Shown here: one piece after another, positions 6,301 through 61,736 of the stretch
Position numbering within the stretch: the stretch's first letter is position 1
Layout: the number at the start of each line of letters is the position of its first letter
Assembly: GCF_037975245.1 (NCBI RefSeq)
Contig: NC_092568.1
Location: forward strand, 16,511,001 to 16,575,000
Direction of reading: 5' to 3'
DNA length: 64,000 bases
DNA from: Apostichopus japonicus
Lineage: Eukaryota; Echinodermata; Holothuroidea; Aspidochirotida; Stichopodidae
The notes under the pieces: model-generated
Databases searched by the model: none
The model's input: the letters and a program-made list of their open reading frames with translations, nothing else
Told to the model about the DNA's origin: nothing
Position numbers and translations under genes: made by a program

Positions 6301-9168
6301 GTATTTTTTTTTATGCATTTTGGATACCAATTGAATATTACCTCTGTAGTCAAGTAATCAGATAAATACTGATTTATCGTTGGCCACCAAAGCTTACTAG
6401 TTGTGCAAATTTAGGAAAGGATATAAACAAATTGAGGATGTTTTATTTTCATTTTTACTTTTCGTTTGGATAATCCTAACATGGAGTTTGAAGAATTAAT
6501 ACACATAAAAAAAAAACTGTGTTGTCAGCTTCTTCCATTCCCCTTTGTCTAGGTCCACAACGGTAGTACCTCAGAGCCATACACCAATCCTACATCACCT
6601 GTTCACATCATTACCGGATCGGCAGTAAGTGTTCTTCCATATCTTTCTCATCTTCTATTTATCGATTAGCTGAAATTGGGCCTTCCCGCTGCAAACAGTC
6701 TTTTGCAAATGGCATTGTTTTTTTAAACTGAAAATAATTTAGAATAGAGAAGGCTTTAAGTAAGATGTTTCTTGTGTCATGTGTAAACATGATTTGTGCC
6801 ATTTGAGAGTGGCATGCATAAAGGGTGGGGGGGGGGGGAATTAGACCACTACTACTACTACCACTACTATGGAGAAACCCCACCCCCAAATTGTTTACTA
6901 GCACTATCTTGCGTTTAGAACTACTTATATAGAATTAACTTACAGTATAGTTTAAAATCTCTAAATATGCCTCATAATGTACCATTTGATGTCTAAGTAT
7001 TTCATTTTTTTCTGGGGTAGGATGATCTTCTTTCAATGGATTTGGCTTCAAAGGGCAGCATAAACTCCTTTATAGAATTCTTGATTTACCTCTGCTCCCA
7101 ACCTCTCCCCACCCCAATTAAAACTTAATTATGTATATTATTTGGGTTAGCAACTTTCATTAAACATTTGTTTTATGTCTTTGCCATAAGTAGCATCTAC
7201 TTATTCAGTTAGTTTATAACAAAGTCTTAAAAGTCACTCCTTACAGCAACATTTCATGGTAAATTTTGAGAAGCACTGCATGCATCATAAATGGAACTTT
7301 CAAAAACTGATACAATAGCACTAATTATTATCTATGAGACAGCGGGGTACTCAAGGTCATTTAAGTGGTCTGCTGTCAATCATGCCATCCACAATTTCAG
7401 ACAAGAAAAATTGAAAATTGTTTCGTTTGAAAACGTCAGTCACCACTACTGCATTATCTAAGAAGTGAGTCAACAAAAGACTGAAGCTTCTGTGTAATCA
7501 TCATAGATTAAAAGGATAGCCCAGTTGAAACTTTTTTGGGGGGTTTATGAAAGAGGAACATGTTTGTCAGCAACCTGATGTAGTTGGCCTTCAACTCCTA
7601 ACAACATATTAACAGCAAATGAAGTTGACAAGTTTTGTACCAAAGGGAACTAAAAGGAACGTGCAATGTCCTTGGTGAAACCTTGTTTTTGTTTTTCAAA
7701 AATTTACATTTAACTTCCTATTTCGAAAATTGGGCTCTATCGCAATATGAAGATCTTGCATTTCATTGGGATATTGTTAGATATTTACAGTTGGAACCCT
7801 ATCCAATCCAAGGAATCATTATTTTGTCAGCATATATGGGTAATAACACACCTTGAGAGCTTACATGATGATCTTGGATACATCATAAATAAAGTTTAAC
7901 TCTGAGTAAATGCCATTGAAATTTTTTAAAGTCTGTTCTTTCAACTAGATGTTATTATTGAGTAGTTTGTGTAGCTACTGTATATTTTAGTTTGCATTTT
8001 AATCACTTGTTCCAGGGTTGTAGGGAGGCACACAGTCGTTTTGGACCCATGAGGTACTACGATGCCTTTAGATCCAGTGACTATGGCTATACTAGACTAC
8101 AAATCATCAACGATACACACATTAACATGCAGCAGGTCTCTGACGATCAGGTTGGTGGTCAGTTTTTTTAATTTTAGCAGAGACTTGATAATTTTCTAAG
8201 GGGATGTTCAATTTCTGTCAATCCTTTGCTCACCCTGAAAGAAGCAACAATTTGCTTAATTATTAATATCCTGACATACTTAATCTCATCAAGAATGGCT
8301 TGACAGGAGGTGGCAGTTGGTAAGTTTTGTCATAGGGTCGGAAATAATACTCTTTGAATTGGCATTTATGTATGTGCCGTACTTACAGCATATACAATGG
8401 GATACTGTATTGGCATAGTAAGGAGCAACAGGGTCCCAGTGTAGCAATGGAATTGGGCCCTCAAAGGAGGGTCCACATTCACCGAAGCCCAACCGTGGTT
8501 TGGGTGAGCCATTTTTAATATTTGGCACTGCCAGATGCCTGGATATGGCCCTCTCATGCTTTCTCCTTTGAGGACAGGATTTTGTTTGAATTCCAGTTTT
8601 GGCATATGGCCAGCGACTGGCACCAGCTGATGGTTAGTTATGTTTGTTTTCCCCTCACCCCACTCAACTGCTCCCACCTGCCACACTGGGGTAGTTATGG
8701 CAACTGCCACCACTCACCATCAGAAGGATACAGTGTTAACTGTGATCCTTCATAGCAAGTTTTAGCTTAAAAGTCATCTCTCTCTCCTCTAAGTCTCAGC
8801 GTACTGAACTTCTAGAAATTTGCATCCCTCAACAAGTTGCCCAGACATTGGTGGTGAAAATACTCATCCATTCATATTCTGTTCTTTACTTTGCAATCGT
8901 GCTTAGTTGACAAAGTTATTGCATCAACTGTTATTTTATTCTGTAATCTCTGTTAAACCATAAACAGAAAACAGTTTTTTTGAGGCATTTGTACGAACAA
9001 AATTCCATAGGATCCAATTGAAGGCATATTGCGTATAAATGCTAACTTGAATCATAAGAAAATCATATTGCAAGTTACTCCTATAAATCCCACTCATGTT
9101 CACAGGACGGAAAAATCGTGGACAAGGTGACACTTGTCAAGACGAAACATGGAATGAGATGGAACTAA
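333..9168 (+). CDS. ACP7: Purple acid phosphatase, ACP7 type, copy 1 (3' part; 5' exons lie before the window)
   Basis: Metallophosphatase hydrolysing phosphate monoesters; family members are usually secreted or lysosomal. Coding exons: 333-401, 2564-2678, 3665-3781, 4410-4446, 5417-5484, 6553-6624, 8016-8150, 9106-9168 (stop TAA). Each is bounded by AG and GT, and reading phase is kept across every junction. They correspond to exons 5-12 of the complete downstream copy, with identical lengths. Visible motifs are NFSNYK at the start, then W-N-I-G-P-x-H-I-I-S, the metal-ligand motif GHRP (exon 7), the GHEHNYER histidine pair (exon 9), HIITGSAGC, and the DYGYTRL / QQVSDDQDGKIVD tail typical of animal ACP7. 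No stop or frameshift interrupts the eight exons, so the copy looks functional. The signal peptide and the GDxG, GDxxY and GNHE motifs would be upstream. Exon 11 is unusually close in DNA to that of copy 2. AATAAA signals at 9460 and 9967 are candidate poly(A) sites. Confidence 0.93.
2000..2215. repeat. Two units of a TGACCTTTGACCTC repeat family (intron 5 of ACP7 copy 1)
   Basis: Two successive units begin with TGACCTTTGACCTC (2000-2013 and 2101-2114), followed by CC-rich, CAAAAA and CTCAA...GTG segments. The same family forms the array at 26.7-28.05 kb and recurs in reverse orientation near 58.75-58.95 kb. Confidence 0.75.
4528..4912. repeat. Dispersed intronic repeat, copy A (intron 8 of ACP7 copy 1)
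   Basis: Shares long stretches with 5720-6062, for example GTTCCTCC...CTCTCATAGCACC and ATTTCCATGAAACTGATTTG. It carries ~60 bp more after TTAGCTTGAAACAGA than the other copy. No coding potential is seen. Confidence 0.85.
5720..6062. repeat. Dispersed intronic repeat, copy B (intron 9 of ACP7 copy 1)
   Basis: Direct repeat of 4528-4912. It is itself flanked by a short direct repeat around ATCCTGTTGAATGGTA (~5667 and ~6069), which may mark a local duplication or insertion. Confidence 0.85.
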
Positions 9169-26739: not shown

Positions 26740-28060
26740 GACCTTTGAGCACAAACAGCAGTGTTATTGTATTCCATAGTGTGGACCCACATATGGAGTA
26801 TCTAGAGTTTACCCAAACTTAATATTTTCAGTTGTTCATGCATAGATTGCAACAGTTGATCTCCGTTTGCCTGAAAGGACCTTTGACCTCCACAGAGTAG
26901 ATTAGAATCAGTGGCGGAGCATCCATATTGTCAGGGGGGGGCGAATGCCCCCCCCCCTGACGGACTCAGATGGACTGCTGGCGCCCTTTTCAGCTTTTTA
27001 CCATGTTTACTTATTCGAGATTATTTACTTTTTTATTGCGCTCTCATCTACCTATTGACATTTGTCACATTTTGTTGGCGATGACACCTATTTATTCTTC
27101 GTTTATCTGCAAATTAGTAGGCCAGGAAAGGGTCATTTCCGGCGATCTAGGAAGTATCTTTATTCAAAAAATTTCTGTACGCTCCGCGCCAACCTGTGGT
27201 GGCGCTCCGCTTAGAAAGTGTCGAAAAAGCGCCCCTACAGACCATTCTCGCCCCCCTTGACCAATACCCCTAGCTCCGCCACTGATTAGAATGATTGTAC
27301 TCACTAAGCTGAATCCATGTTGACCATCCTACATGCATAGCACATCCAATCTTTACTTAGAAGTTATTGTGCTAGTATATTTTCAGACTTAAGTTAACCT
27401 TTTTTTGACCTTGAATGAGCCTTGACCACAAAAAAAACAATTGCACTCAATAAGGTGGATCCATGTAACGGGTATGGCATTCATCCAAGGTTTATCATGA
27501 AAGCTTTCAGAGTTGGAACTCTGTAGGCCTTAAATGACCATACAGTTTACCTCCACAGAAAGCAATAGGATTCTTGTACCTTATATGGTGGACCCTCATA
27601 CATGAGTATAAAGTGCATCCAAGGTTCATTTTTTAAGATATCATGTGTACAAGGTTTCAGATTTCGACATTTGCTGACTCAAAATTATCTTTCACCACTT
27701 GCCAACCAAAAAGACTCTACTTAAATTACGAAATTGAATATACCTGTCAAAATGAAGTTCATCCAAGCTTTACTTTTGCAGCAATTGTGTATACAAGGTT
27801 TTCATACTAACTGACTACTGTTGATTTCAAGTGACCATCGACCGCCATCAACATTTTGATAGGGTTCTTTACTTACCAACTGGATCTACATACCAAGAAC
27901 GAACAGTATCCAAGTACTAGAGTTTGACCTCTGTTGATATGAAAGCTCATTTGAGGTCACCAGAGGTTAATGTCTGAAATGCTTGTAAACATGATAACTC
28001 CACAAGTAAAGCTGGGATGAACTTCATATTTAGTATCTCGTTCCACAATAGTGAGTAGAA
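26740..28060. repeat. Degenerate ~130 bp tandem array, interrupted by a MITE
   Basis: Recurring ordered blocks: GACCTTTGACCTCCAC, CAATAGGATTCTT, GTGGATCCA or GTGGACCC, TTCATCCAAG, TTTACTTTT and TACAAGGTTTTCA, at roughly 120-140 bp spacing. The units are strongly diverged. The MITE 26909-27284 sits inside the array with its 8 bp target duplication, and removing it restores the repeat order. Confidence 0.7.
26909..27284. mobile_element. hAT-type MITE, CAGTGGCGGAGC family, intact
   Basis: 376 bp, perfect terminal inverted repeats CAGTGGCGGAGC / GCTCCGCCACTG, and the perfect 8 bp target duplication ATTAGAAT (26901-26908 and 27285-27292). No transposase frame. The right arm has GGTCATTTCCGGCGATCTAG and the core GTACGCTCCGCGCCAAC (from 27177). 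Best-preserved member in the window. Confidence 0.93.
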
Positions 28061-43092: not shown

Positions 43093-43258
<166 letters not shown>

Positions 43259-44213
43259 CACTGGATTGGTATTTACGTTTACTTCTCCAAGTTGGTGCTT
43301 AGGTTTACCTGAGGTGAAATGATTGGATCAACTTGAAATTTTACATCAGTATACCTTATAGTACTAGGACTGCATTTCAGTCGTTATAAGTTGCTACCTA
43401 CTTTTTGGGTCATTTGGCAAGGAAAAATCCAATTGGTCAAACCCTTACGGTAAACCTAAGTCTTGCTCTCAAAGTATATCCCCCAGTTGGTATATAAGTT
43501 GACCTGACGTACAGGCATCCGTAGTTTTCTTGACAGCGGCAGTAGCCTGTATTCAGTGTATACGCTCTACACTGTGTACACTGTATACGCCAGGGCTAAC
43601 GCTAAAGCATACCCGTCGGCTGCATTGCATGCAACCCAATAACAGTTTCGGCTAATATAAGATGATGTGCAGTATCTGTTTCCTCTCGATGCAAGGGGAC
43701 TGGGCTTGAGATCGGGTCAGTCGTTCGCCGGGTAGTTTGGTTTTCGTGCCCAGGTTCTTCCCTTGTTGACTTTTTCTTAAAAAAAGTACCGTTAAAACGA
43801 AAACGTCTCACCAACAACTTCAGGTAAGGTCCATGAGATTAGTCAATAAAGTTTGGTGATATTAATAACGTTGATATTGTAACGTTGTTGCATACAGCTT
43901 CACGTTATTTGTTCATACCCATATTTCAATACTATAGTCTAGACTAGCTTCTAGCCTAAAACTTGTAAGGCCTAGCCTACGTTCGGCTGTAGCCTAGGGC
44001 CATAGTCCAAGTCCTAACACTACCTTAGCATTGGGTCAAGGGTAAACTGGTCTGTAGTTTGAGCTACAAATTAATACCAACTGCCAGAGAAATTAGATTT
44101 CAAGTAGGTCAGCTTAACTTCTTAGCCTACTGTGCATGTATGTATCATATATGGCCTTAGATTTTGCTGGACAATTATGTTACTGTACATTGCCCTAATC
44201 ATGACCAGATACT

Positions 44214-44818
44214 GTAGCATGGTGGGCTTATAATTGACGCACTTAAGGATTTGATCAATGATATCTATCAAGGAAAAATCCAAATTACTCAACTGTATGT
44301 GTTTTTCATATATGTAGTTCCTCAGAAATGTTCTAATCTCAAAATATTTAAGGTTCTGTGCTTATGCACCGTACAATTGAGCAGAATTTGACCACAAAAT
44401 GTCTGCCGTGTCAAGTTCTTTCATACCCCTAAATTGACACATTCGTCGATAAGCTAACTGTAGTGTAGGCCTTGGTATACATCCATTGACTTAAGATGCT
44501 GTTTGCTATGCTCTGAGCCTCTAAGCTCTGACAGGTCATGTCCCAGAGAGTAGTGTTCTCATATTGAGGTAATGTTGGGTATTTTAAGGGTGTAAGATTT
44601 CCAAATGGCCAAAAAATGTGCAAAACTGGGGGGAGGGTGTTAAAAGCTTAAAAAATACCACAATTTGGTCAGCAAATACCTCAAATGGATTCAAACTCAT
44701 GAAATATGTAATTCTGTTTGGCTGCAAAAAAGTTTAGGTGGCCTGCTGTATCGTTGCTAGTAATAATTTAAGGTGCGTCAATTACGGGGGTGCGTCAATT
44801 ATGAAGCCTTTACTATAC
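44214..44818 (+). mobile_element. GTGCGTCAATTA-family MITE, full length
   Basis: Starts GTAGCATGGTGGGCT then TATAATTGACGCAC. Ends with two spaced GTGCGTCAATTA blocks and AAGCCTTTACTATAC. About 600 bp, with no transposase. Reverse-complement counterpart of 30031-30635. Confidence 0.85.
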
Positions 44819-47800
44819 TGTACAGTAGCTATGCCTAGATTATTTTAGACTGAAGTCACCATGCAAATGTAACTTACAAGTAGCCTGTATTGAATAAAAG
44901 ATGCTATAATTGCTAGAACTTTTCAAAAAGTTCTTGGAAGTCTTTACTCTCCAAAATATTCTCAGACATTCTAGACACCACTGTACTGTAAGATGTCTGA
45001 ATATCCCAGTGAGGGTATCAATAAAAACAGTTAAAGGATATAATACTAGAAAATCCGGCATCAAATTTGGGCCAATGCAGAATACCTTTAATCTAAGTCT
45101 CTCAAGTGATGCATTGTGTTTCAAGTGTCTTATTTATAACTAGCCAAAATTTGTACAAAATAACAATGCCATGCATCCAAAAGGTTATTGAGTCAGTACA
45201 TTTCCATAATGTAACTATTACAAAAGCTGAGTGCACCTAATTAAAAGTTACCATCCTCCAAAAATCTATATAACACAAAAATTTGATAAAGCCTTCTATC
45301 CCCTCCCTTGCATATACTGTAAGTCATTTTGTTAAGTCTATTTAGATCCATAAGTAATACCAAGTTGACTAAATGTGCAATATTCAGTGTTTAAGATCTG
45401 AGCTCTGTATTGGCCCAAAATATATTGGAGAGAAGTGTACAATAAAAATTGAAATAATGCACATCTACACTCTGACCATTTGATATTTATTTGATTGGCA
45501 CTGTTAATGTTTTCTCAGACAAATTTGATGATCAACATTCTCAATCTCAAGATGAATGACAACAGCCCACTATCCAAGGGAATAACACTGTACGATGTAG
45601 CTGCCATGCAGTGAAAAAGTCAATGTTGGAACGACAGCAATCATAGCTAGAGCACAGATGCCGTCTGGGACAGACTGATGTGGTGACCTACTGCATCATT
45701 GACAGCAAAATGGAAGATATTTTCTGAATTAACCAAAAAGTAAGTTAATATTCTGTAGGTTTGACATCGCATAAACTTGATACCATAGGACTCTATTATC
45801 TCAAATACGAGTAACATCTAAGGTAATTTATTCCAAAGTTATGGAATGAAGAAAGAAACAATCAGAAGGGATGAAAACTTTTGTATGATCTGGTTAATGT
45901 GGTGGTATCTTTTCCTCTTTCTCCATAGTATTTAACTACACTAGAGCTATATCCACTCACTGGTTTTTAATCTTAAAGGTCAATGCAAGACAACACCAAA
46001 TTGTCAGGCTAGGTCCACATAAAATGTACATGCATATTTAAATTTTGAAATCTTTACAATTGGTAAAGCTTGAATGACTTGCAACTTTTAAAAGCACTTG
46101 CTATGGTAGGTAGCTGTTTCAGCTCCAATTGAATGCATGGCTGCATAAATAAAATGTGTAATGTTGTATACAAGGCAAGATGAATCAAGAATTAATGGGC
46201 CCAAAATGGGATGGATAAACGAAATTTACAGTGAAAATAGTATATATGAAAGGTTGTGAGATGATTAAAATATTGGCTGAATTACAGGAGATTTAGTTTT
46301 GTAAAGCAGTTCATTGTTTTCTTCATTTGTAGAGTGTGAGGTCTATTCGGTAATCGCAAAACATTCCAAGCTATATTGCGCGTGCTATAATTGGGACCAA
46401 ATCAACATATCTTTAAGAGAAAGCTTTTCTTTTTGTACCAACAGATGGATAGATCTACAGGCTAATACAGCAAAGGATATGCTCTAATTAGAAATGCCAG
46501 GCAAGATTATCACACAGTTTACAGTGGGGTGAATACAATCATCAACCAAGCTTTTCATCATGCTGTACATAGTAGTATACAGTAGCTCCTTGTTGGGCTT
46601 ATCAATTAAAAGCTTGCATTGAAGCCGATGCCAAGCAAAGCAAAAGTATGTCCTGTAAATCGTGAAGTAGATTCACACATCTCATGTATATCCTCTGGGA
46701 CACAGCACATCTTTCAATGGAGTTAGGAAGTTGCTGGGAATAGTTGTTGGATTGGCACAGTAATGTAGTAGCAGTAACAGAAAACTAACTAGTTCCAGGA
46801 TATGTTACACTGTTACACCATATAAAAGATAGAGGAAATTAATATTATAAGCTTCAAGCAGACAGAACCAAGAGAATGCAGACCAGTCTTCATGGGAAGT
46901 CTTCTACATATTTAACTGTATAAATGGACTCATTCTTTTGCAATGTACTTCTTGAAATATTTTAGTTTGGTGACATTGTGGCACTACATGTTTTTGTAAG
47001 TATTAGGGAACATTTGCAGCTGCTTGTCAAGAACATGGAACTTGTTATACAACTGAAGTGGTCCTGATGCTTAAGTGTTGAGGTTACTGGATATTTTGCT
47101 GCCTTACCTTGCTTTAACTGTTCTTAAATGCATTTCTCATGTTTTAAGATGTTTTAATTTTGTATTCCAAGCAAGATCAGCAAGCCATAGTACAGTAATT
47201 TTCAACAACCACCACACAGATACTTGTGCAGGACTAAGGGTATTTGTTAAGCAGATTACTATTATAAAAATCTTTCAAACTTTTATCCCTCAAAATCTCC
47301 AGGGGTACACTGCATTGTTCCTGAACCACAATTTCACAATTCTACAAGTGGGGTTCAGGGGTTATGCTGTGGGAAAAGTTTACAATTTTAGGCCTGACTT
47401 AATTACTGAAAGCTTGTGGTCTTTTATTACACCAAGAACCAGTTTATTCTTTAAACAAAATTAAATTATTTCCCCTCAAAATTGAGGGGAGTGAATACAG
47501 CAAAGGCACATGCAACTAGCACCAATGTCATGGAAACCTAGTGCAGCCCAATGAAACATACTGTAAAACCACAACATTTGTAACTATAGGTATGAAATTG
47601 TGCAATCCAGGGGTATTGTGTATAATTTTGTCCCTCCAAGCATGGAAACTCCATGATATTGTGGTAATTTGCATTGGTTACGGTATTGGATACATGTGCC
47701 TATACTGGTAAGTCTAGATAAATACTTGAGGTATAAGTTAGTTCCCAAAATGTTTCTCATGTATGAGAGAGGTCAGTAAATTGAGGTAATGTAATAGTGC

Positions 47801-48599
47801 AAGTATCCTGGTTTATGTGAAATAAATTTTGTGGAAAATATAAACTGGGATTGAAATTACAATCAACTGCTTGAATATGATTGTACAATTTTTATTGTGT
47901 CTCGTCTTTTAATATCATGCTAATCTCCACTACTGTATGTGTTTGGTAATAAGCCAGATTTCTGGGTAGAAGTTTAAAAAAGCAAATCGTCAACAATTTT
48001 TGATGAATTTTAAGCAATCACATTCACTGCCTCTATCTCTGTTTATGTTTTGAGTCAGCAACACAGTATACTGTACAGTAGTGTACAGAAAGGGACACTT
48101 TCTGTTGTATTCCTAATCAATTGAAAATTGTTTGTTGTTTGACTGTTTGTAGCAGTATTCCTCTGAGGAGTGAAAAAAATAAACATACAGTGAACAGTTG
48201 CAACTGTGCATGCATTTATACATTACTTAAATTATGTTCTGATGAAATTCATGTAATATTCACTGTCGATTTTAGTTCAAAACTGTCAGTATACCATTAG
48301 TTCCTGAGCCATAATTTTTTTGCTTTAAAAATCTGGCTTTGAGTGTATAGTATTTTGTCAAAAACATAAAAGTGGAGGGGCTGCTTATCATCATTCCCTG
48401 AACAGGCTTACCCAATTTGTTAACTATAATGGTAACATATCAAAATGTCTGGGGACTTGCCACAGTGCTGACAATTTTCAAATATTTCCATGGTTCCACC
48501 AGGGATGTTAGAGATGGACAAACAACATTTGAGCTTTCTTTAACGTTTGTTTTGTGCCGACATTAATACTGTTTTTGGTCCAATACTAATACCTAAATA
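44819..48599. other. Gene-poor stretch, nothing firmly supported
   Basis: AT-rich sequence without recognisable exons, RNA genes or element ends. The longest frame (47075-47464, 129 codons) has no family motif and AT-driven composition; I do not call it a gene. Confidence 0.5.
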
Positions 48600-49471
48600 G
48601 GGTGACAGGACAAAATCCCCCAGACAAAGTCCCCCTAGGACAAAATCCCCCAGAGCCAAAATCCCCCTGGACAAAATCCCCCTAGGACAAAATCCACCCA
48701 AGCCAAAATCTCCCCAAGCTATAAAAAATCCCATTAATTCTTTACAAAAATGCGTCATCCCGGTCCCCGGTATCGTCATCCAGTACCGTCATCCGGTACC
48801 CTCACCAGTATTTCCATTGGTACTCTCAGTGGTTCCCGGACCAGTACTCCGACCATACCCCGACCGGTACCTTAATAGTGAGCCTGACAGTTACCCCCAC
48901 CGGTGCTCCTCCCTGACCAGTACCCTGGACTGTACCCCGGCCGGTACCTCGACCGGTATCCCAACTGGTATCCTGAAAGGCACCCTGACACATACTCTGA
49001 CACGTACCCTTACTAGTACTGGTACAATAAACAGTAATTTGACCGGTCCCTTAAATGTCACAACATGGAGCTATATCCCATGGCCACACTAACAGGTAGC
49101 CTTGCAATTACCCTCAATGAACTCCGGACCAGTCCCCTAACCAGTATCCTGACCAGTACCCTAACCAGTACACTGAGTGGAACCCTGACTGGTAGAGTGA
49201 CCAGTATGATGACCGGTACCCTGACCAGTCACATGACCAGTACCTTGACCGGTACCCTCACAGGTACCCTAACAGGAGCCCTCACAGTTACACTCGCCAG
49301 TACCCTCACTAGTACCCTGACCAATCCCCTGAACGGTACCCTAACCAGTGCAATGTCCCATGCCTTGACTGTCACACCTGGGCCATCGCTGGTTGTTGCA
49401 GGCAGGCTTTGTATGGGTCAGTGGGATATTGTCTGGGGGGATTTTGTCCGGGGGATTTTGTCCTAGAACCC
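48600..49471. mobile_element. Inverted-repeat element carrying a 12 bp minisatellite
   Basis: 872 bp bounded by GGGTGACAGGACAAAATCC on the left and the reverse complement of GGGTTCTAGGACAAAATCC on the right. It is flanked by CTAAATA on both sides (48593-48599 and 49472-49478; 8 bp if CCTAAATA is counted with overlap). The left arm repeats the GGACAAAATCCCCC motif about six times; the right arm has the same motif inverted. Between them are ~50 diverged copies of a ~12 bp unit like CCGGTACCCTGA. No transposase is present. The period of 12 keeps frames open and creates Thr/Leu-rich pseudo-proteins. Confidence 0.8.
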
Positions 49472-49641
49472 CTAAATATCACTCAAAACGGATAATGGTA
49501 CCAGACGGTACCTGTACGTTGTCTGCTAGATTCATACGATGTCAAAAGGCTAGAACATGCACTATAATACTGTTATCAGTCGCCAGTAGGTATATACCAC
49601 ACTCATCTCATATCAGTATTTGTTTCTAATGTCATAACAGG

Positions 49642-49971
49642 CAGTGGCGGAGCGTCCATACAGTCAGGCGGGGGGGGGGGCGGACTCAAATGGGAAGCTG
49701 GCGCCCTTTTCAGCTATTCAACACTTTTTACTTATTCGCGATTATTTACTTTTTTATTGCGCTCTCATCTACCTATTGACATTTGTCACATTTTGTTGGC
49801 GATGACACCTATACCTAAAGGGTCATTTCCGGCGATATAGGGAGTATCTTTACTCGAAAGATTTCTGTACGCTCTGCGCCAACCTGCGGTAGCGCTCTGC
49901 TTAGATAAAGTCGAAAGCGCCCGTACAGACCTTTCTCGCCCCTCTGACCAATATCCCTAGCTCCGCCACTG
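49642..49971. mobile_element. CAGTGGCGGAGC-family MITE, left member of a composite
   Basis: Ends CAGTGGCGGAGC and GCTCCGCCACTG. It lacks ~38 bp present in the other copies (after GATGACACCTAT). The left flank is ATAACAGG and the right flank is GCTCCCAA, so this copy has no ordinary target duplication of its own. Core GTACGCTCTGCGCCAAC from 49867. Confidence 0.9.
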
Positions 49972-51677
49972 GCTCCCAATCTTCTTCCCCGTCAATCCGT
50001 CTAGTACCCCCCCCCCCCCTTCCCCAACCGAACCTCGTATGTTAAAGGAATATCTAATGATTAGAGACACTTATTCTAATGTTAAATCAGCAAAGAGCAA
50101 GCAATAATGATTTTATCACTAAGATTTTTTTAATTTCTCAGTTACACCGTCATTTAACTTCCCACTCAATCTTACACTCCCTGATACTCTTCCATCCCAA
50201 TGTAGGAAACTTCATCGTTACACGCAGCACGCAACGATCCTTGTTCTACTTAATTGATCCTTACTGAGTCTTTCAACTTAAAAGCATATTTTTTTTCAAA
50301 TAGCTATAGATTAGTGAAAGTTACACAGTTTAATAAATTAGAAGCATCTCCTTGTTAAAGAATTGTATTATCGGCGTATAGTCTTCCGATAAGCGTAACT
50401 TAGGTTTGAAAGAAATCAATGGGAGCAGGCAGTAATGATATATTTTCAAATCTCTTATTGAACGAATTATTAGCCCCCTGGTTACATCGTCATTTATCAT
50501 CCCTCCCCCATCCTGCCCTACCCTTCTTCACCTCACACACTCCGCTCTATAGGGTTAAAAGAAATCAGCGAGTGCAGGCAGTAATGAAATTTACTTACAT
50601 TAATGAATTTTTTAAATCTCATTTAGGACAAATTATTAGGTCCCCTGGTAACATCATTTACCCCCCCCCCATTCTCCCCCTTCCCTTCCTTACAATCACC
50701 GCTTCTCTTACACCTAATATATGAGATATCCTCGCAAAGCGTGATGAACTAGGTCCCTCATTTATCTAATGCGTGGAAGGAACTCGAAACTTTCTTCCTT
50801 ATCCGCCTATTCCAAGCTTTCTCCAAGAAAAGAGTTACAGTACCTATTACCCAGATTTTTAAAAATAGCCTCCCTCCTCATAAAACGTGATGATCTATGT
50901 CTCTCATTAATCTAAAGCATGGATGAACTACCAACTTTAAGCATATTACAAAGTTTTTCCACAAAAGAGCTACGGAACCTACTACACACAAATTATGTAA
51001 ATGTCACTAAACGGCATCCGTAGGGACATCGTTTTTTGGTCCACATTTGAGTTTCCATCATATCTTTGTTCTGCTTTTCATACATATCTTTTATTGTGAT
51101 TGTTATGATAACCACATCTAAGGACTTTTGAGTCGTATTATTGTATCCAGTGGAATTGTCTCGCTGAGATATAAAAGGATGAATTTTCCGTACGTTTTCA
51201 CGGTAGGCCCCTCTGTTCAAGGTCAATGCACGACTATAACATTAGGTCCACTAAGTGCGGATATTGGTCTCCATTTGCCACTATTGCAGTAAATCCAACC
51301 GAGCAACGTGTCTACGGTGTCTCTTAAAAGACAATATTATTAACAAATTCGAAAAGAATTTTTAATCTCTTTGGTGTCATTTTAAAAGTATTTCTGATAA
51401 CATTACGTACAGAATTCTTTTATATGAGAAAGGTACATATCAGAAACATGACAATGACCGTGATAAAACCAATTTCAAGATTACTAGCGATCAATTCGCT
51501 CAATTTGTTTCAAAAAATGATTGAAAAGTGATATGAATTCCTCCTCATTCATTCTTTTTATTTGAGCATGTTGAACGCTTGTGATAACATGTCATTACGA
51601 ATCATTGCAGACGCTCACCCAAACCGTTAAAAAATACCCTCCCTCTCCCCCCTTCTCTTCCTACACTGAGCTCCCAA
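49972..51677. repeat. Repeat-rich DNA between the two composite MITEs
   Basis: 1,706 bp bounded by GCTCCCAA at both ends (49972-49979 and 51670-51677). It has three related units around GAGCAAGCAATAATGA (50084), GAGCAGGCAGTAATGA (50424) and GTGCAGGCAGTAATGA (50573), each followed by TTACA(C/T)CGTCATTTA-like and C-rich blocks. Two further units around AAAGCGTGATGAACTA (50739) and AAAACGTGATGATCTA (50883) follow. No gene is recognised. Confidence 0.75.
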
Positions 51678-52054
51678 CAGTGGCGGAGCGTCAATACAGT
51701 CAGGGGCGGATGCCCCCCCCCCCCCTCAACGGACTAATATGGACTGCTGGCGCCCTTTTCAGCTATTGATCACTTCTTTTACTTATTCGCGAGTATTGAC
51801 TTTTTTATGGCGCTCTCATCTACCTATTGACATTTGTCACATTTTGTTGGCGATGACACCTATTTATTCTTCGTTTATCTGCAAATTAGCAAGGCCCGGA
51901 AAGGGTCATTTCCGGCCATATAGGGAGTATCTTTACTCAAAAGATTTCTGTACGCTCTGCGCCAACCTGTGGTGGCGCTCCGCTTAGATAAAGTCGAAAG
52001 CGCCCATACAGACCATTCTCACCCCCTCTTACCAATACCCCTAGCTCCGCCACG
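51678..52054. mobile_element. CAGTGGCGGAGC-family MITE, right member of a composite
   Basis: Starts CAGTGGCGGAGC and ends GCTCCGCCACG (one T lost). The left flank is GCTCCCAA and the right flank is ATAACAGG (52055-52062), the mirror arrangement of the copy at 49642. Core GTACGCTCTGCGCCAAC from 51950. Confidence 0.9.
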
Positions 52055-52254
52055 ATAACAGGAGTGACTTTCCATATGTTATTGGTAGGAAATTGCAGGA
52101 ATTATTGGAATCCTCAATGAAAACTATACGTAGGTAGCCTTGTTTGCGTGGGGATTGAGTTGTGTAGGTGTTACACAAAAATGTAGATATGCTTTCTTTA
52201 TTCTTGTGGAAAGCCGCTTTCACTTTGATATCAGATAAACCTGTGGTACATGCA

Positions 52255-52710
52255 GTGACGTAGCCAGGATTGTTCCAGTGGAGGGGGTGGGCGCTTGGGG
52301 GGGGGGCCTTGAACAATTCCTGGGAGGGCGTCTTGTTACTACCTGAGTGGAGTGCCACCATATGGGTTGGCGCTCAGCATACGGGAAATTTTCAGCTATA
52401 AAGACCTCCTAGATCGTTGGAAATAACACTTCCCAGGCCTTGTAAGCTGCTCTAAAGTTTCACAGCATCCTTTATTTTGAGATCCCCATGTCTTGATATG
52501 GTCATCAAATAGTTTAGAGAAATAGAAGAAAAAAGACAATCTGGTAAGTTGCTTTGAAATATCATGACATATCTCGGCCTATGCGCTATGTCACGTCAGG
52601 TTTTTCAGCAACTATAGCCTACTGCCGGTCCGCGGTCGAAGGGTCGTTCATGAGTGGTCATCATGGAGATTCGATACCATGCAGACCAATGAATGATATA
52701 TTTTTCGCAC
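52255..52710. mobile_element. Left and middle part of a CAGTGACGTAGC-ended element
   Basis: Begins CAGTGACGTAGCCAGG with a G-rich left arm typical of these MITEs and includes the segment (52572-52710) shared with 25982-26117. The right end is missing. Confidence 0.55.
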
Positions 52711-55384
52711 AGTCTTGCAAGGTTCAAAGAAATGGCTCCTTACATAGTTGGCATGATTCAAATTCATCCAGTGCAAATTCATCCAGATGCAAATTCATCA
52801 ATATAATTGATCGAGAACTTGCTAGAACAGTAAGCTGTCTGAATTAGCATCTTCAGATCGAATATGGGTTTGCTGAGTTAGGGAGCAATATGTTCGAAGT
52901 AAAAGGACCAACCAATGAACACATTTGTAACATAAGAGGCAGAGATAAGACACTTTAGCAGAAATCATTATGTCTTCTTTCTGTTTATTACTGATAAATG
53001 CAAATATTTTCATTAAAAATCAATATGAAATTTCATGTTACTTTCAGAAATATATAAACAAAGCAACTTCAACAACTTCAGCTCATTCACATTCATGCTA
53101 TCAGCTAGAAAATTCACCATGAGGCACATTTTTAATGAGGCATTGATGTGAATACCACTGACATAACTTGTGCTATTCAAATGGATAAAGGGCTTGGTCA
53201 AGTCATGAATAAGGCTCTGCCCTATATATTGCACATGTACAAAAAGGGTTACTGCTGTACATGCAATACTTTTTTGATGGGGGAGAGAGGGGGGGGGGGG
53301 GAGATGTGGTAACATGTTGAAAAGACCACATCTTTTAATTTGTCATTTTTTTTTGAACATATGCAAATGCTAGAAATGAAAGCACTTGGAAATTTCTTAA
53401 AGAGATAGACAGTTGTTGCCCTTGCACTGCTTTGAAGTCTGCACCACTGTAAATATTGTTGAAGGAGTGGAGTTCTGCGAATCTTTTGATAGTTAAGTAA
53501 TAAATTTTTCTTTCACTGTTTGTTAAACAGCTCCTAGCAGTAATATGCATTTGCACGACATTGTATCTGAGGTTCATTATGTAACCGGTGTTTTCTACAT
53601 ACAGTCAAATTAAAAACCAATGTTAAACTTGTTCACCTGCAATGGTCTAAATTCAGAAAGTACATCAATATCATAACTCTTTTGCATGTTGTATAACGGT
53701 ACTGAATTTGAAGTGGATTATATTTATCAATGAATATAGCAATGTTTTGGGTAAAAGCAATTAAAGCATCCACTTGAACTTCATGTTTTCCTTGCATTGT
53801 TTGCTACTTCCTCCTATCTAGTTTCGAAAGGGACATATAGATAAATGCTCAATACCTCAAACAACATTATTTAACCTTGTTTCCCACAAAAAAATGTTCT
53901 GTCCCAGTTTCTGTAAACTACTTGGGATAAATGGAGGGGTGGGGGGGGGAGGTGTTGGACAGGTTGGGAAACTAAATATTTGACATATGTTGTATTTGAC
54001 AATAAAATTCACCTTCCAAGGAAGTAATACAGTTCTTTAAGTGGCATTTTATGAAGGACCTACAGTATGTAACGATAGCAGAATTGGTTATTGCCTCCTG
54101 CTGAAATGTCCAATAAAGACTTGCAGTATTGGAATGTTCATCAGATTCCTCATTTATAGAAACATCTGTGTTTATTGAAACTTTCCTAGGATGTTGCCAA
54201 CAAGATGCAGTTGAAGTCTACTGTACCTTGTTGTCAAAGGTGGAGCTCACAAAAAGTCCTATCAACTAGTCTTATTCAAGCAGTGGCAACATATGGGAAA
54301 AAAGAAAAGCAAAATATGGTACAATTTTGTTAATATTATTTTGAACTATTTATCCCAACACCCTATCCTCCTTTTAAGACTTTTGCAAGCTTGTAAACCA
54401 GTTACAGCACTCATGCAACATGATATGACAAAGGTTCATTGCCAGAACATGAAACTAGCAATTTGGAGTAAATTTGTGAAAAGAATGATGAAGTTAATAC
54501 ACTGAAATATTGAATGGGGCTCAAAAGAGCTTAAGAAGTCTTTTGAGGTACATTACTTGTTCTGATAAATATATTAATTGCCCTAAGATTCAGCTATTAA
54601 AGCAGCTACTAGTCAGATACTAGATAGTATGGGATCATGAAGGTTTTCAGATTTTACCTATATTGGCCTCAAATAACCTTTGACTTGGCTAAGAGCTCAG
54701 CACATGATACACCTGCATACAAACTTCCATTCATCATTCCAATATTGAACTATCATGTTAACATGGCTTTCAGATTCAGATATCTAGTTATCTCACATGG
54801 GCTTCTGCTATACTGTTTATAGAATAGTACTCAATGTCAGAAACCTATATGCACTACATATGACTACCAACTTTTCCTTGTTGAGTTAGATGCTCTATGT
54901 TACTCTACTGACCTTGAGTAGCCTCGACCCTCAATGAGGCCAACACCTACTGAAAATTCCAGTATAAATATAAAATTAATGAAATGATTCAGAAAATACT
55001 TTAACAGAAAGGAAAACTATTATAAACACTTCTGTTCATACTGACCTCAGCGTAAACAATTTAGAGACCAAGAACATATGGTATAATAACTATTAGCTAA
55101 CATTTCTTCCTTCTACTCTGCAATTTTGAGAGAACAATAAGCAAACCTGATACTGGCAATGTAACATGGCAACAATCACAATAATTCACAAATGACATCA
55201 GAAAAAGTAGCAACCATGACAATGATGATGATTTGAAAATCTTAATGAGCAATCCTAAATGTAACTAGAATTTCACTTTTAGTAGAGCAGGGTTCTCACA
55301 AGCTGGTTCTAACCTGGCGGTGGTCGTGGTTTGAATATGATTTTGCCTCTCCCTGCATGGTTTGAAAGTTGAGCGCCCGGGCTG
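52711..55384. other. No gene seen
   Basis: AT-rich sequence with a G run at ~53289-53301 and another at ~53940. Neither strand shows a convincing exon, RNA gene or complete element. Confidence 0.5.
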
Positions 55385-56735
55385 AACATTTATGAACCAG
55401 GAAAAGCTTGCTGCCACTTATCTGGTCCGAAAAAATTATAGCATGAGGTAAATTTCCTCCTGGGTGCATAATTATCATAACAGTTCAAGAATTTTTACCA
55501 AAGGTGATCATATTTGAATATCTGGAGTCGGCTCGGACTTGAAAGGTCTTGGATTTGGCTCATACCAAGTGGGGTCGGACTTGGCTCAAACTCTGGCTAA
55601 TTGGACTCGACTACAGCTCTGCCATAAATATAAAAAGATAATGGATTGTTAATAATTTATTATATGATGTTGAGAAGGTAGAGACTTAGAAAGTTAACTC
55701 CTAAATGTAATGGATAGCATTAAACTCTTCGTTTCACTAACAAAAGGATTCTCAAATACAGTACTAGCAACATTACAGCTAAAATAATGGATCACCAATA
55801 CGATGCAGTGAAAAAAGGGAGTTTAATAAAGAGCATCCCTCAATGTAATGACTAGGATAAAACTCTTAGTTTCACTAACAAAAGGATACCACATGCAGTA
55901 CCAACAAGAGGGATGCCCATTATATTGAGGGTCCACTAGACTTGCTAGACCCAACACCCCCATTGTGGGAAGCATTATTGAGCGTCTAGTTAGCATTTAT
56001 TGGGTAACTGAAGTATTGAAGGACCTTGGTGTCTCCCCTCCCAGTAGTTTTATAACATTTATGAACCAGGAAGAGCTTGCTGTCACTTATCTGGTCCGAA
56101 AAAATTATAGCATGAGGTAAATTTCCTCCTGGGTGCATAATTATCATAACAGTTCAAGAATTTTTACCAAAGGTGATCTTTGGTATCTGGAGTCGGCTCG
56201 GACTTGAGGGGTCTTGTATTTGGCTCAGACAAGATGGACTCGGACTTGGATCGGGCTCTGGGTAATTGGACTCGACTACAGCTCTGCCATAAATATAAAG
56301 AGATAATGGATTGTTAATAATTTATGATATGATGTTGTGAAGGTAGACACTTAGAGAGTACTCCTAAATGTAATGGATAGCATTTAACTCTTCGTTTCAC
56401 TAACAAAAGGATTCTCAAATACAGTACTAGCAACATTACAACTAGAATAGTTGATTACCAATACGCTGCAGTGAAGTAAAGGAGTTTAATAAAGAGCATC
56501 CCTCAATGTAATGACTAGGATGAAACTCTTAGTTTCACTAACAAAAGTATACCACATGCAGTACCAGCATGGGGGGGGGGGGGGGAGGATGCCCATTACA
56601 TTGAGGGTCCACTAGACTTAAGGTTTGCTAGATCCAACATCCCCATTGTGGGAAGCATTATTGAGCATCTAGTTAGCATTAATTGGGTAACTGAAGTATT
56701 AAAAGACCTTGGTGTCTCCCCTCCCAGCAGTATAA
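55385..56735. repeat. ~670 bp tandem duplication with nested ~115 bp repeats
   Basis: Units 55385-56053 and 56054-~56735 both start AACATTTATGAACCAGGAA and end CTCCCCTCCCAG(T/C)AGT. Inside each, shorter blocks recur (AATGGAT, GTAATG.(A/C)TAG, CTCTT(C/A)GTTTCACTAAC, AAAAGGAT). A third degraded stretch continues to ~56990. Similarity between the large units is high, with small indels and a G run only in unit 2 (~56573). Confidence 0.9.
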
Positions 56736-57159
56736 CAACTGGAATAATGGATTGGTGAAACAATGTTTTATTTGATACAGTGAAGTAAGGGAGTTACATG
56801 AATAATAGTTAATGTAATGAATATGATTAAAATCTTTGTTTTACTAACGAAAATTATTCTCAAATACAGCAACATAAGAATTTGTATAAATGGATTATTA
56901 ATAATGAATTTTATGATGCTGTAAAGGAAGAAAATTCATTAACAAATTTTAATTTGTATGCTGCATGTCATATACCTGTCCAGAAACTAAAAAGAAAAAT
57001 TCAAACTCATAGAATGCACCGTACCTGGCTCCAAGCAATGACATATAAATCTAGTCCTCATTATATCTACAGAAGTTGTTTGTCCAATTTTAATCGAAAG
57101 CCTTTCCTTTCATTGAAAATTTTGATCTTCAGTAAATATATTCTTCTGTCTGCAGATTT

Positions 57160-57240
57160 TATTGATTTTATTTTATTTTGATTTTATTTGATTTGATTTT
57201 ATTTTATTTTGATTTTATTATTGATTTTATTTTATTGACA
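57160..57240. repeat. T-rich low-complexity repeat (TTTTATTTGAT-like)
   Basis: Runs of TTTTATT and TTGATTTTATT repeated irregularly directly after the degenerate tandem repeat. Confidence 0.85.
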
Positions 57241-60200
57241 GTACTTCCCTTCTCTTGTGGAGAAATTCCATCAGCTCTCGTTAACCTACAATGAACCAAA
57301 ACAACATTTCAATCATATGTCAAAGTTTCACTGAAGTACATTCCATGTAAATATTTTTTTAAAGCCTCACATTTTGATATTGACATTGTTGCAAAAGGTA
57401 CAAATAAACACATCATAATCAAGGTTAAAATGTGATGGTGTGTTAACACCTCAAGTCTTTGCTTCACAATCCTACCTACAATTCATTCCAGCCTGCCAGA
57501 TGGCAGATTTACAGTACATTTGGTTTTCAAAGACTACACATTAAGTCATTTCAATTCGGATAACATTCTATGATGGTGGAAGTAGCAAAGTAAACCAAAA
57601 GGTTTGGCAGTGGACTTGGTGGGAAGTGGAAAGTCTTTCTTACATTACTTTGTTAGCCGTTGCCTTAGATCGTTTACAGTTTTTGAAAATAAACAGCAAA
57701 TTTTCATCATCTTTGTTCGTGTTGAAACTTAGTACAGTAAATTTATATTATGTATAGTGTGTGTTGATCAGACTTAGAGGATATTAAAGGGAAGACTTTA
57801 GAAAACTAACTTCAGGTCATAGGGATTTAAAATATATCTCACAGTCAATACTTACTGAATATTAAAGACAACTGGGATGTTTGCAATATATGCTTGTGAG
57901 AGCTCCTTATTTCCATATAAGCCATTTCTCTCTGCATCCCATGGTCAGCATGAACCAGCAGCTCAAAGTTACAGTATTTTGATATCCTGTGTCGACCTTG
58001 AAATTGCAGCCCTGTACTTCTTGCAATAAAGTGGAGCATATCTGCTGTGGTGTTCTCATTCTGCATTCATGCATTCCTCAAATTGTGCCAAATTTGAGCC
58101 ATCTTTTCTGACAAGAGAATGAACATAAATAAGTCCAGATAATTGTTTCATAAATTGCAAGTGGAAGTCTTGACAGTGCAGTTCCCTATTTGATGTCAAT
58201 ACTTAGTGTACTGTACATGTTGTCCAATATTCATGTCAGTTTAGTTAATTTAGCTATCACTTTTTTCATGGAAACCGCATATGCAACAATTGAGAAAAAT
58301 GCCACACTACTAAGTTTGAATATTGATCTATTATTTGGTATGTAAGTTGTACCCAGGAATTTAGCATGCAATCACTTCAAGAGATTGACTGAGTATTCAT
58401 GCATGGTTCAATGCCTCATCCCGCATGCAGTTCATTTACTAAAAAATTGCATGCACCCTAGACTATGTATACCGGTACATTTAGTCCCTCAACGTATCAT
58501 TTAGGGTTTAAGCTCAGGACTACTCGTGTACACAGACTTTGGAATTATGACTGAGTTCATTTTTAATGTTTGGTTTCAATGATGTTGAAACTTTCCACTC
58601 ACGATGGCATATGTGTGCGTGTGCATTGGTAGGAGTACTGTGTTTGTGATCCTAGCTTGTAAACACAGTTTCTCATGACAGTAAGCTTTATTGGACAGAT
58701 CTCATAGTTGGTACAGTATGTATGTATATATGCATCACAAGTACAAGAAGCCTATTGTTTTTGGTGAAGGTCAAAGGTAATTTAGGTAAAAATGGTCAAA
58801 TTGTGAAAACTCAATTTGAAGCATGCATAGATCTATTTATTGGTATGTCTAGGCCAGTGGTTGGGTCAACAGGGCAAACTTGTGAAAACCTTATTTAAAC
58901 CATGCGTCTCAAAGCAGGGTACACTAGCTTGCAGAGATATATAATGTTTAGTATCATGTTATATCGCTACAGAAGGCTTTCAGTGGTCTTTTTAGATCCC
59001 CAACTGTCACTTTGAAAATGTTGTTTATCACAGTTCTCAATAGTTTTTTGCTGTATATTATTAAGATACAATAAGTTGTACATGCAGCCTACACATATAC
59101 AGTAGCATGGACATGAGAACTATGTAGTGCCTGTTGAACATTAGTCTTGTGCATTTTCATGTTACTTACTAACACCAAATTACTGCACACAGATGGTCAT
59201 TTTTAAAAGTATGAAAACTGAATACAATCAAGAGCTTTCATTTGGACATGATACCCAATATGAAACTACTTTAGTTGCACATACTGTATGTATGCTGGTT
59301 TTTATCATGAATGATTTTTATAGGAGCCATGAATTTTTTTTAATTTTTTATGAAGTAGGTCTGGATTCCCTTGGCATTATAACCTGATTGAAATTTAACC
59401 GCTGTGATTGCACTAATATGTGAGACCATTGATCAACCTAATTAATAGCTTTTAATGATGAAGACACTGATAACAATTTCATAACTCATTAGTGTGAACA
59501 CAATGCAAGGTTCAATGAGGTACTGTTTATTTCCTTAAAATGCATAGCTGGTGGTTTTTCAACATACTCTAATCCTTTCAAATATGTTACATTGAATCTT
59601 TACACTTTTCCATTGATATATCACAGACTGTGTTTTTTTGTTATGGGACTCCGTAAAACTGGATCAAACCTAGCAATTTTGGACAAGGAATTTGCTCTTT
59701 TTGCAAAAACTCAAGCCATGATTCATCCCATAAGTGCTCAAGTGACTGTACAGTAGGTCACCCTGTGAAGGCATTGTGGGACTTTGAGGAATACTTTTGA
59801 TCAAGCTATTACTTCAGCACTATTAACACTACCCACATCATAACGTTAATATCAAAATGCCTAAATTACTTAGCCATGATTGCTTTGTTATTCTAAAATG
59901 AATACTCAATTGTTTACTCTCAGCCATGATTCATCCCATAGGTGCAGGGGGAAAAAACTCATGTTACAGTACAAAAAAATGTTGTACACTGCTACACTGA
60001 GGCCCTGTGTGACTTAGTTCTCTGAATCAGAGCCAATGACACACCACTACTACTGTACGCACAGGGCTTAGTGATGCACACTAACACATATAGAGAATAT
60101 TGTGGGGATGAATATTGTACTGAGACGGCAAACGTTTTCACATTTTTTACTTTTGTAACTCGTTTATGGAATCTGTCAGGCCCTTTCTTTTACTGTAGTG

Positions 60201-60330
60201 TTCCGTTTGCTTGTGTATCTGTTTTTGTGGAGTTGTGACTTTCTGACTGCCTTATTTTATGTCAGAGAGATTGAGACGTACCCAAAGATTTATATTTCGT
60301 GAAATGGTTCAAAATTGCATCGCTCGAATG
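57241..60330. other. No gene seen; one reversed TGACCTTTGACC repeat
   Basis: AT-rich. Around 58765-58950, GAAGGTCAAAGGTAATTT and neighbouring blocks are reverse-orientation units of the repeat family at 2000 and 26740. Nothing else is supported. Confidence 0.5.
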
Positions 60331-60756
60331 CAAGTTCTTTCATACTCCTAAATTGACACATCTGTCGATGAGCTTACTGTAGTGAAGGCCTAAGTAAACA
60401 TCCATTATCTTTGGATGCTGTTTGCTATGCTCTGAGCCTCTAACTTCAGAAAGGTCAGGTCCCAGAGATTAGTGGTATTATATTGAGGTAATTTTGGTTA
60501 TTTTTAGGGAGTAAGATTTCCAAATGCCCCAAAACATGCATAGAAACAATTTGATCAGCAAATACCTGAAATGGATTCAAACTCATGAAATATTTAACTC
60601 TGCTTGGCTGCAAAAAGTTATGGTTGCCTGCTGTATAGTTGCTAGTACTAGCTACAGTAGTAGTAGGCTAGTATATAGTAATAGTAGCCTAGTACTAGTA
60701 GGCCTAGGCTAGGCCTAGTAATATTTGGAGGTGCGTCAATTATTAAGCCTTTACTT
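60331..60756 (+). mobile_element. GTGCGTCAATTA-family MITE, 5' truncated, with CTAG-rich insert
   Basis: Starts at the internal CAAGTTCTTTCATAC block and runs to GTGCGTCAATTATTAAGCC. Between 60645 and 60725, CTAGTA / TAGGCCTAG units replace the usual sequence, forming a self-complementary stretch. Confidence 0.75.
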
Positions 60757-61615
60757 TAAAAGATCTGGAAGATCACCAGGCTGCAAAATGTGTAGGTTGA
60801 CCAGTCTGTTACAAGTATATACTTTAATTTATGCATATTCCGAGTATCAGCAAAGGCAGTAGCAGGCAGCTGTGATTTACCATAGCCAGTAATACTGATA
60901 GGTCCAATTTAGGGCTAACGTTAGGCCTAGGCTAGTCTACTCTAACTCTAACCATGGTCTTAATTTATTTGTGTTCAGCATGAAGGTATTTACTCTAAAT
61001 GTTATTAATATATCCGGAACACTTTTAAGGAATTTACTTACAATGCATACACTGCACCAAAGTCCAAAAGCCAACTTCAAATGGGCAACGTTTACGGTAA
61101 CCTGCGGCACTTTCCTTTGTAGACTACATACATGGCCAGGCCACATAAAGTAACGTTGAATGTAGGCTATTGGGATAGCAACGATACGATCCGATCGACT
61201 GCCCTGCCACCGAACACAGAAAGAACTGCTTATATGTGGGGGCGTTGTTTCGTTACGTGTAAATTTGCCAGTTAAAATAGAAACTCTTATTTTCTTAAAT
61301 ATCCCAAATTAATGGAAGAAAAAGTACAATTACGAAGATTTCAGTGTAATTAGAGGAACCTATAAGTTTCGGAACTATATATAGCCGCATTTGGTCAAAA
61401 TCGAGGTGTAAAGTTGGGATCAACATATATACCATGTTCGTAATTCTGTTATATACCCTTCGGAATTACCTCCACTTTTGAGGGGAAATTTTACCCTTTA
61501 AATGAACGATTTTTTTTTTGTAACTTCGGAATTGAAAAGTTTATGAGGTTTTCTCTTAACTCGAAATAATCATTCCTCAAAGGAAGTGAAATTGATTGAA
61601 CAAGAAGACCCTAGA

Positions 61616-61701
61616 CTTAGGTTTACCTGGTGTCAGGTAAACCTATCCCCGAGGTAAACCTAAGTCCCAGCTATCATGCGTTGAAGTAAACAAATATACC
61701 A

Positions 61702-61736
<35 letters not shown>
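61616..61736. repeat. TTAGGTTTACCT inverted repeat next to (TA)n
   Basis: CTTAGGTTTACCT and AGGTAAACCTAAG (61616-61664) form a hairpin with an additional copy between them, followed by (TA)n at 61707-61736. A related arrangement in reverse lies at 43096-43310. Confidence 0.7.

Follow-up and report, generated by a model that had tools for sequence, protein, structure and literature searches.

The locus: an 18.4-kb repeat and its nested insertions

The window, by which we mean the whole 64-kb stretch of DNA analysed, contains an 18.4-kb repeat, H (43258..61704), with imperfect terminal inverted repeats and (TA)n tracts at its left (43096..43257) and right (61705..61736) borders. These limits come from a copy on C12, which has the left border in common with the window and whose homology runs from one (TA)n tract to the other over ~18.4 kb with gaps, and from the right-end matches of six other H copies (C5, C9, C12, C14, C16 and C21), which stop at window position ~61739. 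At C12:18921162-18954870, the end of one H unit runs through (TA)n straight into the beginning of another, head to tail. Aligned with each other in inverted orientation, the two ends of H score 70, compared with a maximum of 50 in 200 shuffles, and the junction counts given below place its copy number in the dozens. A Pfam search of ten stop-to-stop frames of H returned no match above the cut-off and one sub-threshold match (E 0.042). Elsewhere in the window, a 612-aa open frame at 32389-34227 matches HSP70 (Pfam PF00012, E 5.4e-222).

H carries two nested insertions. The smaller, M (48600..49470), measures 871 bp and has inverted CAAAATCCCCC-like ends and a minisatellite interior, with periods of 12 and 16 among those reported; it lies between copies of the target site duplication (TSD) CCTAAATA at 48592-48599 and 49471-49478. 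The larger is the composite at 49634..52062, whose exact order, read directly from the sequence, is ATAACAGG-E1-GCTCCCAA-X-GCTCCCAA-E2-ATAACAGG, with all parts on the plus strand. Its left outer 8-bp target duplication, ATAACAGG (49634..49641), is followed by E1 (49642..49971), a 330-bp predicted hAT-type MITE with terminal inverted repeats CAGTGGCGGAGC/GCTCCGCCACTG, and then by the left inner 8-mer GCTCCCAA (49972..49979), probably a duplicated target site in X, as a single GCTTCCAA, differing from GCTCCCAA by one base, is found in an array that lacks E. X itself (49980..51669), which aligns with an E-free unit from C19, is one satellite unit carried as cargo. The right inner GCTCCCAA (51670..51677), also seen at the joints of X-E arrays, leads into E2 (51678..52054), the 377-bp right terminal MITE, and into the right outer ATAACAGG (52055..52062).

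The swapped flanks described in the earlier note are thus real: the outer 8-mers match each other, the inner 8-mers match each other, and both E copies share one orientation. On the plus strand of the window, ATAACAGG occurs twice, both times flanking the composite, and GCTCCCAA occurs at the two inner flanks and at 7094. By our own arithmetic, two matched 8-mer pairs at defined positions have a probability of ~4^-16 in random DNA, far beyond chance. Two details of the note have to be corrected. The terminus of E2 is not CCACTG but CCACG, with one T missing, and E1 and E2 are not equal copies: they measure 330 and 377 bp, E1 has a gap of >30 bp, and the two differ within a copy by a median of 10.1%.

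Copies of the composite within H and empty target sites

With X as a query, 46 matches were obtained from the 40 scored of 219 candidates. Both E copies and the H flanks surround X at 27 of 30 loci (L009-L038, L009 being the window); among the other three, L021 and L022 form one tandem and L033 is rearranged. The tandem (C9, about 19915374-19919950) is an E-X-E-X-E inside H, and its middle E is chimeric, with E2 sequence on the left and E1 sequence on the right, as unequal crossing over would produce. At L033 (C16:20634488-20639183), a truncated E2 comes first, and after it a second CTAATGTCATAACAGG and a short E in which some portions resemble E1 and others E2.

A genome-wide search for the left junction (ATAACAGG plus E, at most one mismatch) gave 85 matches, 59 of them exact, and none in the control. 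The right junction, searched with no mismatch, gave 61 matches and again none in the control. All 61 end in CCACG and never in CCACTG, which places the change at the right terminus of the H composite before H was amplified; given this altered E2 end, the copy in H may be unable to move by itself. When left and right junctions were paired within 12 kb, 46 of the 85 left junctions had a partner at 2.3-3.1 kb, six at 2.0-2.1 kb, three at 5.0-10.4 kb and one, the rearranged L033, at <600 bp, while 29 were partnerless. Reading of 20 further left-junction loci found X next to E in 17; deletions interrupt L070 and L078, and the remaining locus, L085, is a solitary E that does not belong to H.

These counts bear on the first mechanism proposed in the earlier note, in which homologous recombination would have inserted X-E circles into E copies that already occupied ATAACAGG and the other sites. 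Tandem arrays can shed circles, and the geometry fits exactly, accounting for the matching outer flanks as well as for the inner GCTCCCAA. Such integration nevertheless needs a resident E. No left junction that was examined shows an intact lone E at the H site; these junctions include the 29 partnerless ones except for nine, each with one mismatch, that were neither read nor among the X matches. A right junction within ≤600 bp, as a lone E would show, is present at one of 85 left junctions, and that copy is the rearranged one. Circle integration is disfavoured on these grounds, and taking in the allele comparison given below we regard it as unlikely.

Divergence between copies dates the pair relative to the spread of H. 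E1 and E2 differ within a copy by a median of 10.1% across 27 copies, as compared with 1.8% among 29 E1 copies and 2.1% among 28 E2 copies, so that the two were already distinct when H was amplified. Without the first 52 bases the median is 8.3%, a value that is silent on whether E1 and E2 were identical on entry into H.

The joined 17-mer GTCATAACAGGAGTGAC, expected at an uninterrupted target, has five exact matches in the genome; at up to two mismatches its 109 matches are at control level (118). Eight loci were fetched, comprising the five exact matches and three with one mismatch, a fourth one-mismatch place being left out. Six of the eight are H copies with both flanks, a single ATAACAGG and no E or X at the site; one of them, L060, has an E ~85 bases beyond it. 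The remaining two are L064, where a single side is homologous to H, and L061, which has no H match. M is also absent from the six empty-site copies. Filled H copies differ from one another by a median of 1.9% and at most by 8.0%. Between empty and filled copies, five loci have medians of 9.5-14.0%, and L060, with an E in its right flank, has a median of 26%; L021, L022, L035 and L043 were left out of this comparison.

Because ATAACAGG is present once and intact in six related H copies, we take E-X-E to be a real insertion with an 8-bp duplication. The check for an empty site that the earlier note had proposed was answered positively within this genome, by paralogous copies of H, and an empty target of the kind expected for a macrotransposon exists at the H site. 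The note had also named a larger segmental duplication as a circumstance that would speak against its reading. Such a duplication does exist, since the outer flanks are repeated as part of H, which is dispersed and larger than the composite; the insertion still stands, because related H copies lack E-X-E. What has to be given up is the location of the event, as the window copy was inherited with H and the insertion happened elsewhere. We also considered whether the matching flanks could be a by-product of H duplication alone, with no transposition of E-X-E at all. The outer flanks are indeed conserved in H copies, but the empty H sites with a single ATAACAGG and four composites outside H with duplications of their own (see below) contradict this reading, which we reject as highly improbable.

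E elements, composites at other sites and X arrays

E has 12-bp inverted ends, CAGTGGCGGAGC/GCTCCGCCACTG, that begin with CAG and end with CTG, and the copies measured are 325-343 or 371-380 bp long. A query of E1 with its flanks gave 2089 first-look candidates, and all 40 of those scored matched. Within the window itself, a lone E lies on the plus strand at 26909..27284 and has its own TSD, ATTAGAAT, on both sides, as read from both flanks, which indicates that E on its own acts as a MITE and generates an 8-bp TSD. A further lone E, L085 (C19:14318598), stands in the inverse sense at an unrelated site outside H with ATAACAGG on both sides; this locus came from the search for the ATAACAGG-E junction, so its agreement with the duplication of the H insertion was preselected. 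The flanks of the lone E at L060 match, by eye, at seven of eight bases. Members of the hAT superfamily have short terminal inverted repeats beginning with CAG. With such termini, 8-bp duplications, short length and many copies, E is, as judged from its sequence features, a non-autonomous hAT-type MITE.

The same features argue against E being the terminal direct repeat of an LTR-like or TRIM retroelement. Such an element would account for the terminal repeats in direct orientation, the target duplications, the many copies and the tandem E-X-E-X-E; the usual ends of its LTRs are TG...CA. E has 12-bp inverted CAG...CTG ends instead, also occurs alone with 8-bp duplications, and is represented in the H copies by E1 and E2 of different lineages. 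We rejected an LTR-like element on its termini and TSD length, and consider it the least probable of the explanations weighed here.

Composites are not confined to H. The E|X-start junction, searched with up to two mismatches, has 79 matches and none in the control, and ten of the 79 carry an older variant of the junction: one is the H copy L039, and the other nine are absent from the list of H junctions. Four of these nine were read. L087 (C4) and L089 (C19) are X-E-X-E arrays, L090 (C5) is a single E-X-E, and L088 (C5) is an E-X-E with a shortened right E. Using L090 as a query, we found further composite copies on C5, C9, C19 and C20 among the 40 scored of 3287 candidates. The inner 8-mer recurs at the joints that were read, in some of them with single changes.

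The outer 8-mers are identical at five of the eight composites examined at both ends, or at five of the six that keep both ends, and the five perfect duplications all differ. They are ATAACAGG for the composite in H, TTGAGCAC for L090 on C5, ATTAATCT for a multimer with a deleted first unit on C4, TATAGAAG for a composite on C20 and GGCTGACT for a second composite on C5; the interiors of the last two are known from match coordinates only, by which the C20 copy is a multimer and the C5 copy is internally deleted. L088 has no outer duplication (five of eight bases match), two C5 composites without a right end are alike and probably duplicates of each other, and the C19 composites were seen at their right ends only. 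A complete, plain E-X-E was read throughout in the H copies and L090 only. A pair of elements in direct orientation with intervening DNA, and a TSD outside the pair only, is the defining arrangement of a macrotransposon, and it was found at five of the eight composites.

X also occurs without E. The E-free X joint, found only with the older junction sequence, has 11 matches and none in the control, and ten of the 11 lie in a single array at C19:28267837-28283129, with one uninterrupted GCTTCCAA at each of its ten junctions. A donor-site pattern derived from the window version of the junction was discarded, as it gave 12 matches against eight in the control, with no X around them. Eight of the nine spacings in the C19 array are 1565-1598 bp; the ninth, of 2643 bp, may hold an insertion. 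The one unit read is 1576 bp long and contains nothing of E beyond a 23-base match. The X of L090 is homologous to it from end to end (86%), and the window X aligns with it at 85% over X positions 571-1689 and at 78% over positions 3-557. This array has the form expected of an X satellite before E was inserted, although it may instead have lost E. Together with the X-E arrays, it supplies the tandem form of X for which the earlier note had suggested searching. In addition, a tandem array at C19:22030613-22034814 has, by match coordinates, a ~1.35-kb period in which part of X is combined with approximately the first 80 bases of E, and is a possible second-generation satellite.

Probable transposition of the composite and comparison with known systems

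Taken together, the sequence data make it probable that E-X-E is a composite, non-autonomous hAT-type macrotransposon that has moved as one unit several times. One E would have inserted at GCTCCCAA in an X unit, and duplication within the array would then have multiplied the X-E units. With a hAT transposase provided in trans, the left end of an E and the right end of its neighbour could have served as a pair, and E-X-E would have transposed as a single block. After its entry into H, the composite would have become fixed there, its right end would have lost one T, and later copies would have spread with H. The second mechanism of the earlier note, a composite hAT unit leaving an X array, is thus well supported by the E-free array, the X-E arrays, the empty H sites and the four non-H composites with TSDs.

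The E sequences themselves provide a further comparison with circle integration, under which the outer half of each terminal E should derive from the resident element. We used the three columns at which two array-internal E agree and differ from three lone E, in copies that are not independent of one another. Array-type bases are present in the outer halves at position 88 in six of six left copies, and at 314 in seven of seven and 315 in six of seven right copies, as opposed to the other bases in the three to four lone E read (the fourth has GT at 314-315), and this argues against residents of the lone type. Measured as distance, on the other hand, the outer halves are almost as close to lone E as to array E (e.g., 0.085 and 0.082), a slight difference that leaves room for circle integration. 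Exact matches to the AA-type E number 156; of the 100 that were listed, 30 lie away from the X matches compared, one being a truncated H copy; a resident E of this type is therefore possible, and the alleles are not exclusive to composites. In a FastTree reconstruction, fifteen composite E separate from three lone E with a support of 0.966, several of the fifteen being H copies and hence not independent. The E pairs within a copy tend to cluster (support 0.91 for L090, 0.84 for L087 and 0.63 for L089, and only 0.30 for the H pair), a pattern that circle integration from one X-E unit would be expected to give. Overall, macrotransposition is clearly more likely than circle integration.

The clustering of three of the four pairs (0.63-0.91) hints at a related origin, in which one X-E unit would give rise to both terminal E whenever the composite transposes, by way of a circular or re-replicated intermediate. 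Local homogenisation of arrays would also explain the clustering, and we consider the single-unit origin doubtful. If true, each insertion would start with identical terminal repeats, in an LTR-like manner but with hAT chemistry, and a new insertion could seed a new satellite array.

Re-replication of the kind described in maize offers another route to the same outward architecture. The transposase would use ends of two E copies, either sisters or neighbours, in S phase, and the re-replicated flanks would be joined inside, giving E-flank-flank-E with an outer 8-bp TSD in one step, with no X array required for the first composite; the part of PMC4270019 available to us describes such an architecture, with flanks switched and joined inside. 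Here, however, X comprises an entire satellite unit, and in the E-free array its two ends already adjoin, so that no new internal joint is needed, and the existing X-E-X-E arrays could yield the composite without re-replication. We therefore rate this route as quite improbable.

If macrotransposition is the correct reading, one natural genome keeps its stages side by side: the E-free satellite, X-E arrays, composites with different TSDs and empty sites. It would also provide a route by which a satellite unit leaves its array, reaches other chromosomes and is multiplied inside another repeat.

Macrotransposition has, to our knowledge, been shown mainly by genetics in maize, where Ac/Ds macrotransposons or composite insertions were reportedly described by Huang and Dooner in 2008 and by Wang et al. 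in 2022. Among the open-licence papers found on composite or multimeric MITEs, which include the Anopheles and coral studies discussed below, none presents an E-X-E structure in its title or at the start of its abstract, and the open-licence literature on macrotransposition and satellite DNA yielded only work on Arabidopsis fragile sites.

Several systems share individual features with E-X-E. In Anopheles gambiae, a composite MITE derived from a P element likewise has 8-bp duplications, and its authors suggest that neighbouring elements transposed en bloc, by macrotransposition, and founded a MITE (PMC1562414, available portion); it differs in belonging to the P superfamily and in being a single MITE with two different ends rather than a pair of MITEs around a satellite unit. 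Coral CMITE arrays and CMITE-IN resemble our arrays in their tandem MITEs with similar spacers and in the formation of a new element by MITE insertion, but they are of the piggyBac type (TTAA), and replication slippage is suggested for the arrays in the sections seen of PMC2872659. An intimate link between MITEs and tandem repeats is also evident where MITEs give rise to satellites (PMC9659126, in the portion available); there the direction is from MITE to satellite, and here it appears to be the reverse, with a satellite unit becoming the cargo of a MITE pair. As for the carrier repeat, H shares an association with microsatellites with the MITEs of PMC8449440, judging by the accessible part of that paper, but at 18.4 kb it is not miniature.

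By analogy of structure, the closest known system is that of the maize Ac/Ds macrotransposons (PMC4270019 and PMC9910405, as far as available in part), in which hAT-type termini of two elements form the ends of one large unit, the 8-bp duplication lies outside the pair, and flanking DNA becomes cargo. The available text of PMC9910405 reports a 28-kb macrotransposon that excised and left a modified 8-bp footprint, and a 10.3-kb one that reinserted. E-X-E differs from these in that its ends are complete MITEs and its cargo is one satellite unit, and in forming a small natural family at no fewer than five target sites, for which arrays of the donor type survive.
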